In this document: positions 1,786 to 6,437 of the stretch, in pieces
How positions within the stretch are numbered: the stretch's first letter is position 1
Layout: each line of letters starts with the position of its first letter
Source: Gammaproteobacteria bacterium
GTDB taxonomy: Bacteria > Pseudomonadota > Gammaproteobacteria > Pseudomonadales > Azotimanducaceae
Length of the DNA stretch: 64,000 bases
NCBI GenBank assembly: GCA_026707945.1
Contig: JAPOVV010000074.1
Span: 124,001-188,000, forward strand
Direction: 5' to 3'
Program-made: the position numbers and the translations under genes
The notes under the pieces: model-generated
What the model was told of the DNA's origin: nothing
The model's input: the letters and a program-made list of their open reading frames with translations, nothing else
Database searches by the model: none

Positions 1786-2883
1786 GTGACCAAGACATCA
1801 ATCCTCACCGGTAAGGCTAGTGACTTCCTGAAGATCGGCGTCGGTGCCGCGGGTCGCGGTGACCTCGATACGCTCAAGCAGGTTCTTTCCGAATGTCCTG
1901 AGTGGCGCACTCGAATCGGTTCACACGGGAGAACGATGTTGTGGGAAGCATCATTTCGCGGCCGTCTCAATGTCGTCTCGCATCTGCTCGATACGTACGA
2001 CGACATCGATATTGAAGCAAGAGGATGCCACTATACGCCGCTGCTCGTCGAGATCAGCCCACTCTGTGCCGCGATTTTTAAAAAACGAGCTTCGGTTGTG
2101 AGTCGTCTCGAAGACGCTGGCGCACGACGTGATGTTCTTACTTCAACATTTCTTGGCGAAATCGACATAGTCAGAGAATTGATCAGCGATAAACCAAGTC
2201 TCGTTAACGAAGAGTTCTACCAACACGACCCGCACTTCAACGCGACGCTCTTGCACTACGCGGTCAGCGGTGTTCATCAGAACATCGTGGAATTGCTCAT
2301 CGATCAAGGTGCAAAGATCCGACCTCACAGTGATCTACTTCTGCGCTTCGCGCTCTGGCGTGGAAATGCGGAGATACTCCGGCTACTACTTGAAGCTGGT
2401 CTCGATGTGACTCAGAAAACCTTACTTCAAGGCGATGTTGGCGATACTCGTGTTATAGAAATGCTTAAATCGTTCGGCGCAAAAATCGAGATTGACGCGA
2501 GCCAGAACGGTTGGCCGTCATTGGTATACATCTGCCGTGGCGACCGAGGTGGCAATCCCAAGATCGTTCACGATCTGCTCGACCAAGGCGCGGACGTCAA
2601 TGTCACTAATTACAAAGGGCAAACCGCTCTCCACTGCGCTGCAAAAGCGGGTTTTGTCGAACCGGTTCGAATTCTGTTAGCTCATGGCGCGAACGTAAAC
2701 GCTCAAGATCGCGATGGTGATACGCCGCTACATTGCGCATGTCGGTCGTCCATCAAGAACCACGAGAACCTACAGCAAGTCATCGATCTATTGATTGAAA
2801 ACGGCGCTAGTCTGCTTGTAGAAAATCGCCAAGGACGAACGCCGAAGCAAGTACTGCGGCGCTCAGCAAACCTCGTTCTTTAG
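1786..2883 (+). CDS. Ankyrin repeat protein
   Basis: 365 residues from a GTG start. Ankyrin units are visible along the length: a degenerate N-terminal one (GRTMLWEASFRGRLNVVSHL, about 49-68), middle ones (LLHYAVSGVHQNIVELLIDQG, LLLRFALWRGNAEILRLLLEAG) and two canonical C-terminal units (GQTALHCAAKAGFVEPVRILL, then GDTPLHCACR extending to LIENGAS). No signal peptide or membrane segment is seen, so it is probably a cytoplasmic protein-binding scaffold. Its size and layout match the second ankyrin protein at 28855-29949, which may be a distant paralogue. Partner unknown. It diverges from the oxidase subunit III gene across a 169-base gap. Confidence 0.85.
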   Translation: MTKTSILTGKASDFLKIGVGAAGRGDLDTLKQVLSECPEWRTRIGSHGRTMLWEASFRGRLNVVSHLLDTYDDIDIEARGCHYTPLLVEISPLCAAIFKKRASVVSRLEDAGARRDVLTSTFLGEIDIVRELISDKPSLVNEEFYQHDPHFNATLLHYAVSGVHQNIVELLIDQGAKIRPHSDLLLRFALWRGNAEILRLLLEAGLDVTQKTLLQGDVGDTRVIEMLKSFGAKIEIDASQNGWPSLVYICRGDRGGNPKIVHDLLDQGADVNVTNYKGQTALHCAAKAGFVEPVRILLAHGANVNAQDRDGDTPLHCACRSSIKNHENLQQVIDLLIENGASLLVENRQGRTPKQVLRRSANLVL

Positions 2884-2962
2884 AAACATTGAATTTCCTG
2901 AATGAGCGTGCCGATCAAATCACGACTGGACTCAGACATCGAACGTGGATTAGTCGATAGAT

Positions 2963-3760
2963 CTAGAGCTTTGAGATATTCCCAGTGCCAAGAATCCTGC
3001 TTGAGACTTCCGGAGTACCGTCGTATGTCACGTCTCCTGTCCCCATGATGGTGACGTTTAGTTCATCCGATGCATGTATCCGAACATCACCTGCACCGCG
3101 CACGTTTACTTCGGCTACCGCAGACTTCAGTCCAATTCCACTAAAGTCTCCGCCACCATTAATAGTCACCTCGCATGATGTCGTCGTACCTTCTTTGACG
3201 GCAATCTCTCCTGCGCCATTAATAGACGTTGAGAAATGATCAAACTCACCTTCCTCGATTGAGACAGTACCTGCACCATTTATTTTGAATTCAATTTTCT
3301 CGGTATCAATCGCACCTAAATCGAAGATACCTGCGCCGTTTATCGAAACTTCTAATTCAGGCATCGTCAGGTCTTTTGCGGACATTTGACCACCCCCAAG
3401 CATCTTCAAGGTGTCTATCGAATGGAAGTAGATCGTCCCTTCGACCTGGAGATGAGGTCGAGTACAACGTTTCCCGAAGCCACAATCCCGTGTGATCTCT
3501 AGTTCGCCTCGTCTCACATCGACTACAAGCTCGTCTTGATTTCCTCTAACGAGTTTCAGTGAGACTCGATGCTCATCGCTCTGAACGAGTTCGATGTTTC
3601 CGCTCACTGACATATTTATCTTGGTAAATTCCGCCACGTTCTTGTCGAGTTCATCCCCCAAAATGCTTCCCGAAAAGCAAATCAGTGCGACGACTAAAAA
3701 CGTGCGTGTTAGAGTTGATATATGAGACATCATCACAGATTCGAACGAACAGTTAGCCAA
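2963..3760 (-). CDS. Secreted GIN-domain (DUF2807) protein
   Basis: 265 residues. An N-terminal hydrophobic segment (TRTFLVVALICFSGSILGDE) looks like a Sec signal peptide; translation may begin at one of the internal Met codons (residues 10, 11) just before it. The rest is a regular beta-rich repeat with recurring SINGAG, KINGAG, INGGGD, NVRGAGDV and IMGTGDV motifs about every 18-22 residues, the pattern of head GIN-domain / DUF2807 proteins, which form a beta-helix. Exact roles are poorly known; it is probably periplasmic or surface-exposed. Two Cys in CGFGKRC may form a disulphide. It converges with the ankyrin gene, 79 bases apart. Confidence 0.8.
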   Translation of the reverse strand: MANCSFESVMMSHISTLTRTFLVVALICFSGSILGDELDKNVAEFTKINMSVSGNIELVQSDEHRVSLKLVRGNQDELVVDVRRGELEITRDCGFGKRCTRPHLQVEGTIYFHSIDTLKMLGGGQMSAKDLTMPELEVSINGAGIFDLGAIDTEKIEFKINGAGTVSIEEGEFDHFSTSINGAGEIAVKEGTTTSCEVTINGGGDFSGIGLKSAVAEVNVRGAGDVRIHASDELNVTIMGTGDVTYDGTPEVSSRILGTGNISKL

Positions 3761-5453: not shown

Positions 5454-5501
5454 GTTCTTCGCCTCTTTGAGTGAAGCGGTTTAAGAAAATTCAGATATGG
5501 T

Positions 5502-5520
5502 GAATTAGACCACGATTTAA
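5502..5520 (+). promoter_or_regulatory. Candidate upstream activator box, copy 1
   Basis: GAATTAGACCACGATTTAA lies 84 bases upstream of the GG of the -24 element at 5586. Almost the same sequence occurs at 6065-6083, 83 bases before the second -24 element. The repeated position suggests a binding site for a sigma-54 enhancer-binding protein, possibly PspF-like. No experimental consensus was matched. Confidence 0.5.
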
Positions 5521-5567
5521 TGCAATCTGCTATTTGCACCTTCCTAATCACATAGTTTATTTCTTTA

Positions 5568-5580
5568 AATCAATAACTTA
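5568..5580 (+). promoter_or_regulatory. IHF site, copy 1
   Basis: AATCAATAACTTA fits the IHF consensus WATCAANNNNTTR at every defined position. It ends 5 bases before the GG of the -24 element, the same spacing as in the second copy, and sits between the upstream box and the promoter, where IHF bends DNA at sigma-54 promoters. Confidence 0.6.
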
Positions 5581-5583
5581 ACT

Positions 5584-5600
5584 TTGGCACGCATATTGTC
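5584..5600 (+). promoter_or_regulatory. Sigma-54 (-24/-12) promoter, copy 1
   Basis: TTTGGCACGCATATTGTC (5583-5600): GG at 5586-5587 and GT at 5598-5599 with exactly 10 bases between. The -24 half, TGGCACG, is perfect; the -12 half has GT instead of GC. Predicted transcription start is near 5611, just before the PspB-like start at 5632. Confidence 0.7.
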
Positions 5601-5631
5601 TTATATAAAAGGAAGCAAAAATGGAGTCGAC

Positions 5632-5859
5632 ATGGAATTAACGACTTTTGTCGTACTGATCGTATTGATCAGCTGTTCGACCGGCGTCATCACATCGTAC
5701 TTTAAGTCGAAGAAACGCGCGAGCCAGACGTTATTGAAACGCATTGAACGAATCGAGAAACGGATATCTGACGATCCGCTAGAAGAACGAGTACAGGCGC
5801 TAGAAGCCATCCTCACGGATGAGAAGCGCCGGCTGGATCGCGAAATTCGAAGTCTGTAG
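5632..5859 (+). CDS. PspB-like envelope stress membrane protein, copy 1
   Basis: 75 residues from ATG 5632, chosen because GGAG lies 5 bases upstream and because the predicted sigma-54 transcript starts near 5611, which rules out the longer frame from 5584. One N-terminal membrane helix (about 5-22) is followed by a basic YFKSKKR stretch and a coiled coil. The C-terminus RVQALEAILTDEKRRL resembles the conserved PspB ending (RxQALExILD). Known PspB is a small inner-membrane protein which, with PspC, relieves PspA inhibition of PspF. The LISC segment resembles a lipobox, but the charge pattern favours a bitopic protein with a cytoplasmic C-terminus. No pspA, pspC or pspF is in the window. A tandem paralogue is at 6198. 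Confidence 0.7.
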   Translation: MELTTFVVLIVLISCSTGVITSYFKSKKRASQTLLKRIERIEKRISDDPLEERVQALEAILTDEKRRLDREIRSL

Positions 5860-6064
5860 TGGATGCTAGACTGATTTCTAGATGCAAAGGAGTGAGTCAG
5901 CTCGACCTACTGTCATAGGTACGAGCAAGCGAACTTTTCCAGTACCTCAAATCCACCAACAGGCGATATTTAATCGCGACATTGGTTCAGCGGAGTAAAC
6001 ACTCGCCGGTTCGTGCGAATGCGCCTACTCGATCGACAGATGAGATGACGTTCTTTTAGATAGT
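5860..6064. other. Spacer between the two PspB-like units
   Basis: About 200 bases with no convincing open frame and no strong hairpin followed by a T-run. It separates the first gene from the regulatory region of the second. Confidence 0.5.
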
Positions 6065-6083
6065 GATTTAGACCACGAATTGA
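6065..6083 (+). promoter_or_regulatory. Candidate upstream activator box, copy 2
   Basis: GATTTAGACCACGAATTGA shares TTAGACCACGA and nearly all flanking bases with the copy at 5502-5520 and keeps the same distance (83 against 84 bases) to the -24 GG. A TCTGCTAT element also follows in both, at 5526 and 6099, about one helical turn different in position. Confidence 0.5.
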
Positions 6084-6129
6084 CGTATAACGCTAAATTC
6101 TGCTATCTATTCAATAATAAATATAAATA

Positions 6130-6142
6130 AATCAATAGGTTA
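6130..6142 (+). promoter_or_regulatory. IHF site, copy 2
   Basis: AATCAATAGGTTA matches WATCAANNNNTTR fully and lies 5 bases before the GG of the -24 element, exactly as in copy 1. It is in an A/T-rich run, as natural IHF sites usually are. Confidence 0.6.
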
Positions 6143-6145
6143 GAA

Positions 6146-6161
6146 TTGGCATGAATGTTGC
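6146..6161 (+). promoter_or_regulatory. Sigma-54 (-24/-12) promoter, copy 2
   Basis: TTGGCATGAATGTTGC has GG (6148-6149) and GC (6160-6161) spaced by 10 bases, a full match to the invariant sigma-54 positions. The expected transcription start is near 6173, leaving a leader of about 25 bases. Confidence 0.8.
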
Positions 6162-6197
6162 CTATAATCAAAAAACAACTCAAAAAGGACTCGATCA

Positions 6198-6437
6198 ATG
6201 ATAGGCGAACCTTTCACCATGATTGTGCTGATCGTATTGATTGGTTGTGCTACGGGCGTACTATCGACCTACTTCAAATCGAAACATAAGTATCGTTCAG
6301 ACCCAGACCTTAGGGAGCGAGTGGAGAGACTTGAGGGTTTGATGGGCGATGGATCTTTAGAAGACCGAGTTCGTGCGTTAGAAACCATCGTAACGGACGA
6401 TAAACGAAGGCTCGACCGAGAAATACAAAGACTCTAA
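6198..6437 (+). CDS. PspB-like envelope stress membrane protein, copy 2
   Basis: 79 residues from ATG 6198, with AAGGA 8 bases upstream. Same plan as the gene at 5632: a hydrophobic N-terminus (about 8-22, MIVLIVLIGCATGVLSTYF), a basic junction, a coiled coil and the ending RVRALETIVTDDKRRLDREI, nearly identical to the paralogue. The LIGC segment would pass as a lipobox, but no basic residues precede it. With its own upstream box, IHF site and -24/-12 promoter, the whole unit looks like a tandem duplication of about 370 bp. Expected role, from family knowledge only: inner-membrane sensor or partner in a phage-shock-like response. Confidence 0.7.
   Translation: MIGEPFTMIVLIVLIGCATGVLSTYFKSKHKYRSDPDLRERVERLEGLMGDGSLEDRVRALETIVTDDKRRLDREIQRL

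Follow-up and report, generated by a model that had tools for sequence, protein, structure and literature searches.

Two predicted PspF-dependent sigma-54 promoters with IHF sites in front of tandem genes for divergent PspB-like proteins

Two small genes, here X1 and X2, lie in tandem in a 64,000-nucleotide stretch of gammaproteobacterial DNA (the window), each behind a promoter region of the same composite layout. The locus raises the question of which regulator these promoters answer to, and what kind of proteins they would supply. The preliminary description had proposed control by sigma-54, IHF and an enhancer-binding protein, as in the psp operon. Two modules of box, IHF site and -24/-12 promoter, at window positions 5495-5600 and 6058-6162, are indeed read directly in the sequence. 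The features of the locus are as follows:

5495..5515, + strand: PspF-type enhancer box, copy 1 (ATATGGTGAATTAGACCACGA; core GTGAATTAGACCAC at 5500-5513), matrix rank 1, with invariant run
5505-5515, + strand: TTAGACCACGA, copy 1, direct reading
5568..5580, + strand: IHF site AATCAATAACTTA, copy 1, consensus match
5584..5600, + strand: -24/-12 sigma-54 promoter TTGGCACGCATATTGTC, copy 1, GG at 5586-5587, 11/13 consensus positions
5632..5859, + strand: X1, predicted 75-aa PspB-like membrane protein, within an ORF, start 5632 chosen by eye
6058..6081, + strand: PspF-type enhancer box, copy 2 (core GTGATTTAGACCAC at 6063-6076), best match 6061-6081
6068-6078, + strand: TTAGACCACGA, copy 2, direct reading
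6130..6142, + strand: IHF site AATCAATAGGTTA, copy 2, consensus match
6146..6162, + strand: -24/-12 sigma-54 promoter TTGGCATGAATGTTGCC, copy 2, GG at 6148-6149, 12/13 consensus positions
6198..6437, + strand: X2, predicted 79-aa PspB-like membrane protein, ORF

The geometry of the modules is closely shared. Both IHF sites match WATCAANNNNTTR completely, and the gap between the IHF core and the GG of the promoter is five bases in both copies, each as originally stated. The distance from box to GG differs by one base between the copies, also as described (81 vs 80, counted from the T of TTAG); the earlier values of 84 and 83 are obtained if the box is begun three bases more to the left. The promoter scores out of 13 refer to YTGGCAYG-N4-TTGCW, which we take to be the -24/-12 consensus. 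A box had been reported for both copies and is present in both, but it is part of a longer element: TTAGACCAC forms the right part of an imperfect dyad, GTG-N8-CAC, that reads GTGAATTAGACCAC in copy 1 and GTGATTTAGACCAC in copy 2. With all offsets counted from the first base of the -24/-12 element and not from a transcription start, the IHF site lies at -16 in both modules and the dyad at -84 and -83.

X1 and X2 are paralogs, 57% identical over 74 codons, with ribosome sites picked by eye at 5623-5626 (GGAG, X1) and 6184-6189 (AAAGGA, X2). Two ortholog comparisons for each gene gave dN 0.24-0.27 vs dS 1.2-1.4 for X1, and dN 0.13 and 0.28 vs dS 1.37 and 1.73 for X2; with dN of 0.13-0.28 against dS of 1.2-1.7 over the four comparisons, both behave as expected of real genes under purifying selection. 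In the protein tree, 2 of 15 inner branches are well supported, and the duplication was not dated from it. The earlier label "PspB-like" holds as a distant resemblance at profile level and does not extend to family membership. Pfam PspB gives X1 and X2 17.2 and 15.1 bits (cut-off 25.6) and TIGR02976 gives 21.7 and 21.3 bits (cut-off 51.7; E 2e-4), and because these scores fall under the curated cut-offs the two proteins are PspB-like yet not PspB members; the true PspB of the genome sits elsewhere and scores 93.4 bits. Aligning 18 X with 14 PspB proteins by hhalign returned a probability of 95% over 70 columns (E 4.6e-8, for one comparison). The tails of X1 and X2 further resemble that of PspC (E 0.006-0.017), and the X profile matches the PspC tail with 82% probability over 40 columns. 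X1 and X2 therefore look like distant relatives of PspB in which the final 40 residues are similar to the PspC tail as well; judged by eye, their topology appears to be that of inner-membrane proteins with one membrane span and a helical tail in the cytoplasm. X-like proteins were also observed in Hyphomonadaceae (L083 4980-5219, L084 4986-5219), the former just under the Pfam PspB cut-off (25.3 vs 25.6 bits); pspA, pspC and pspF had no match in the 10-kb stretches of these two loci.

The genome encodes the components that such control would need. The rpoN gene, on which the original proposal hinged, is present, and a search for a PspF-type activator returned a PspF above its family cut-off (480 bits vs 443.55), encoded beside pspABC and divergent from it. 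PspA falls just under its NCBIfam cut-off (240.4 vs 242.95). Four HU/IHF-type genes were found, of which one passes one of two IHF-alpha cut-offs and another has IHF-beta as its best match, under the respective cut-offs. Searching with PF00158 gave two strong matches, PspF and a protein of the NtrC type whose gene lies next to a kinase-like one, and four weaker matches of 21-30 bits, over the cut-off of 20.2, that were taken to be other AAA proteins. The PspF model at E 1e-30 found the same two proteins and none else in the bacterium's own genome. Another activator could exist, because the four weak PF00158 matches remain and the genome is 96% complete.

The box has a counterpart in the psp operon of the host itself, whose promoter combines GTGTTTTTAACCAC (at -88) and an IHF-like site (GATCAATCAGTTA, at -29) with the -24/-12 element TTGGCATGGTTTGTG. 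This pspF-pspA intergenic promoter and its E. coli counterpart have the same parts as the window modules, namely an upstream dyad, an IHF site and a TGGCA-type -24/-12 promoter. The host promoter differs in spacing, with IHF at -29 in place of -16 and the dyad at -88. The E. coli geometry is nearly that of the window modules: in the K-12 pspA promoter the dyad GTTAGTGTAATTCGCTAAC lies at -81 (vs -84 and -83), and the AATCAA of a partial IHF match at -18 (vs full sites at -16).

A matrix derived solely from psp-operon enhancers, those of the five genomes own, G105, G157, G293 and G294, the first three being one genus and the last two having X genes and neighbours close to those of the window, ranked the X1 box first and the X2 box fifth of 127,960 window positions (one-strand); after symmetrisation the ranks were first and ninth. 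A few other window positions score as high as X2, and these are without such a promoter. Column-shuffled versions of the matrix placed both boxes inside the top 20 in 5 of 2000 trials. In the reverse direction, a matrix of five X boxes was run on seven psp loci and ranked the psp enhancer first or second in four of them. It took first place in own, G293 and G157; in G105 it was second, outscored by an overlapping register of that site, and moved up to first on symmetrisation. In the remaining three psp loci, G260, G076 and G279, no dyad was recognisable and no target was marked. Among 20 pspF upstream regions scanned (L102 being omitted as a duplicate of L101), the dyad has a narrow distribution: exact GTG-N8-CAC occurs in four close relatives (own, G105, G293, G294) and a near copy in a fifth (G157). 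The scan reported none in the remaining 15, one of them from G260, a genome of the same genus. For two of the regions scanned, L093 and L107, the best element is far upstream and possibly distinct from the psp promoter. The preliminary description had noted that the box differs from the usual PspF sites; the box matches the host's own psp enhancer, and the discrepancy arises because PspF enhancers differ between lineages.

In E. coli, the available parts of the literature describe a PspA that keeps PspF inactive until stress, sensed via PspB and PspC, frees it, and an IHF that helps PspF reach the sigma-54 polymerase (PMC9239133, PMC3709507, PMC3068692). In view of the psp-enhancer match and the presence of rpoN, IHF-type genes and pspF-pspABC in the genome, control by sigma-54, IHF and PspF is well supported and remains the best reading of the locus. 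We consider it highly probable that both modules are PspF-dependent sigma-54 promoters and that X1 and X2 would be made together with PspABC. Under inner-membrane stress, PspA would release PspF, which would bind the GTG-N8-CAC dyad, some 84 bases ahead of the promoter element. The DNA between dyad and promoter would be bent by IHF, and PspF would open the sigma-54 polymerase at -24/-12, so that X1 and X2 would then be produced together with PspABC. The two proteins may become part of the PspB-PspC-PspA complex or tune it, acting as additional sensors, as effectors or in feedback; the predicted membrane span and helical tail would suit an interaction with PspB or PspC.

The first module is conserved in several relatives. 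Copy-1 promoters were compared for five loci (window, L082, L080, L081, G157); L082 and G105 appear to be the same genome, as their PspF coordinates are identical. A T-GT-AATTAGACCACGATTT-A-G block, the IHF sequence AAATCAAT and TGGCA...TTG are unchanged in all five, and pairs of these promoters are 49-59% identical, except for the twins L080 and L081 (90%). With L081 left out (four genomes), 24 upstream columns out of 100 are invariant, and 16 of these are consecutive; such a run appeared in 0 of 20,000 single-base shuffles, a control that ignores relatedness. G260, of the same genus, has X with no such promoter within the 320 bases scanned, and no IHF-bearing module was found for the stand-alone X genes of G084, G265, G184 and G284 (same order) or of L083 and L084 (Hyphomonadaceae). 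L084 has a weak 9-of-13 element with GTG-N8-CAC at -139 and no IHF site nearby. The locus of G133 (L076) is clipped, and its X promoter enters no promoter count.

For the second module, four copy-2 promoters were compared, and the IHF sequence TAAATCAAT is the same in all of them. L080, L081 and L082 keep the IHF site and the promoter of their second copy but have a changed box, which suggests that the enhancer of copy 2 may be undergoing loss or modification in these relatives. The same change, together with the paralogy of X1 and X2, could indicate that the second module is a decaying by-product of tandem duplication, with only copy 1 still under PspF control. We regard this as possible, if rather unlikely, for the window: its copy 2 retains GTG-N8-CAC, has the better promoter score (12/13) and precedes a protein under purifying selection.

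NtrC promoters also use sigma-54, and the NtrC-type protein, the only other strong activator match and accompanied by its kinase-like gene, might in principle drive the sigma-54/IHF promoters, in which case X1 and X2 would answer to the nitrogen state. The region upstream of the kinase gene speaks against this. Upstream of a -24/-12 element before ntrB, the kinase gene, stands TTGCACTATTATTGTGCAA, presumably an NtrC dyad (spotted by eye against a consensus we assume, and not listed by the pattern script), whose half-sites are in the opposite order to GTG-N8-CAC. The psp matrix scores the ntrB upstream region at -0.2 to 4.1, as against 10-16 for X1 and X2, and no NtrC-type dyad was seen by eye in the X1 and X2 promoters. 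Because the box before ntrB is unlike the X boxes, NtrC is a very improbable activator of the two modules, and PspF remains the preferred one.

How specific the individual parts are was assessed by genome-wide scans. The 11-mer TTAGACCACGA has 5 copies in the 3.8 Mb of the genome, vs 3 for the reversed control. The three copies outside the window are not part of a dyad, and their 7-kb loci contain no -24/-12-like element accompanied by IHF or dyad; in one of them, on C9, a weak 9-of-13 element follows some 90 bases downstream of the 11-mer. The 11-mer was rejected as a marker, because three of its five genomic copies are without the dyad and IHF context. The preliminary description had proposed looking for further boxes near -24/-12 promoters; the composite scan for box half plus promoter (ACCAC-gap-TGGCA) gave 28 matches vs 16 in the control, which is near background when taken alone. 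The palindrome GTGRNYTARNYCAC, allowed one mismatch on both strands, was uninformative (160 matches vs 266 in the control). IHF plus -24/-12 gave 6 matches vs 0 in the control, and 43 vs 8 across nine related genomes. Exactly three places are common to the list for box half plus promoter and the list for IHF plus promoter: the psp operon, X1 and X2. That short upstream regions merely happen to resemble consensus motifs, as the near-background counts of the 11-mer and of box half plus promoter might suggest, is hardly credible beside the IHF-plus-promoter excess, the invariant 16-base run in copy-1 promoters and the matrix match in both directions between psp enhancers and X boxes, and is already contradicted by the conservation.

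The gene neighbourhoods connect the X family to the psp operon in a second way. X relatives occur in 12 of 293 genomes of the order, the host's own included, and a species-wide scan found them in five loci, of which two belong to Hyphomonadaceae. In G076 and G225 X is the next gene after pspC and shares its strand; in G279 a DUF2807 gene stands between pspC and X. The link between X and psp is obscured in G133 by a contig break. The psp locus consists of pspF-pspABC without X in own, G157, G293 and G260, and in G105 no X was seen behind pspC, where the contig ends about 300 bases further. The neighbours of X in the window, L082, L080, G157 and G260 include a TauD gene and one that we read as a Baeyer-Villiger-type monooxygenase. 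A psp-operon gene may thus have left the operon in the lineage of the window, or entered it elsewhere, and X would have kept or gained PspF control via its own promoter, doubled in several members. The probable reason for the two extra promoters is that a gene carried within the psp operon by some relatives is located elsewhere here and was duplicated. A DUF2807 (Toastrack-type) gene was also observed at window 2963-3760, about 2 kb from X1, for which no PspF-type promoter was noticed in the scans. In L082, an ORF at 1912-3177, resembling by eye an IS200/IS605-type OrfB transposase, lies between the DUF2807 and PhyH genes, and there is no such transposase gene between these two genes in the window.

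Among known systems, the closest parallel is pspG of E. coli and Salmonella, which the accessible portions of the literature present as a small inner-membrane Psp gene outside the operon with its own PspF-dependent sigma-54 promoter (PMC9239133, PMC3709507, PMC3844500, PMC3068692). X1 and X2 differ from it in that they resemble PspB and are two tandem copies, and PspG is not among the family matches listed for them. A further parallel is offered by the PspB/PspC/Toastrack (DUF2807) variants, in which, in the part of the source available, extra divergent PspB-like genes are tied to pspFABC (PMC11237479). The DUF2807 gene, in the operon in G279 and close to X1 in the window, adds to this likeness; the PspB duplicates described there sit in the operon, whereas X1 and X2 stand alone with their own predicted PspF promoters. 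In titles and abstract openings, mostly of non-subscription literature, no stand-alone PspF-controlled PspB-like gene is named, which is weak evidence of absence.

The promoter architecture is ordinary for PspF; the new part is its two target genes of an unnamed PspB-like family. The PspF regulon is enlarged by orphan genes, a sensible extension of a known system and not a new system. The combination of enhancer, IHF site and promoter has been kept in several genomes of a different lineage, and a small unnamed gene family is tied to PspF in two arrangements, within the operon and outside it with its own promoter. For this lineage, in which the dyad has changed, the comparison yields a PspF site that can be tested, and it puts forward candidates for additional subunits in the Psp sensor complex. 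More speculatively, and in our view improbable as a whole, X1 and X2 might constitute a hybrid adaptor family, with a PspB-like span and a PspC-like tail, placed outside the operon under two separately tuned PspF enhancers, such that PspF output would determine how many PspB-type subunits the sensor complex contains relative to hybrid ones. Such a dosage-set feedback loop is not described for the E. coli system in the portions of the literature available (PMC9239133, PMC3709507, PMC3844500, PMC3068692, PMC11237479).

Several other candidate sigma-54/IHF promoters were noticed. At G000:C36:73633-73669 (L086, L180), an IHF plus -24/-12-like site precedes a gene that by eye resembles a PAPS/APS reductase; GTG-N8-CAC was not seen in the 130 bases upstream. 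A further sigma-54 and IHF promoter at G000:C37:395714-395754 (L089, L176) lies about 270 bases before an ABC-transporter ATPase gene and has counterparts in G293, G294 and G105 (L177-L179). These C37-type promoters have conserved upstream blocks (TAGYGAGATTTC and GTAGTGGAAA types) that resemble neither the X boxes nor the NtrC-type box, and the psp matrix does not find the C37 promoter when it is considered as a PspF target. IHF plus -24/-12 also stands before apparent counterpart genes at G000:C114:128341-128381 (L090) and G294:C37:786-826 (L159, L181), both with CACCACGTTTT upstream. Finally, G294:C11:31401-31443 carries a second psp-like promoter composed of IHF and TTTGGCATAGTTTGTG, on a contig other than that of the PspF locus used.
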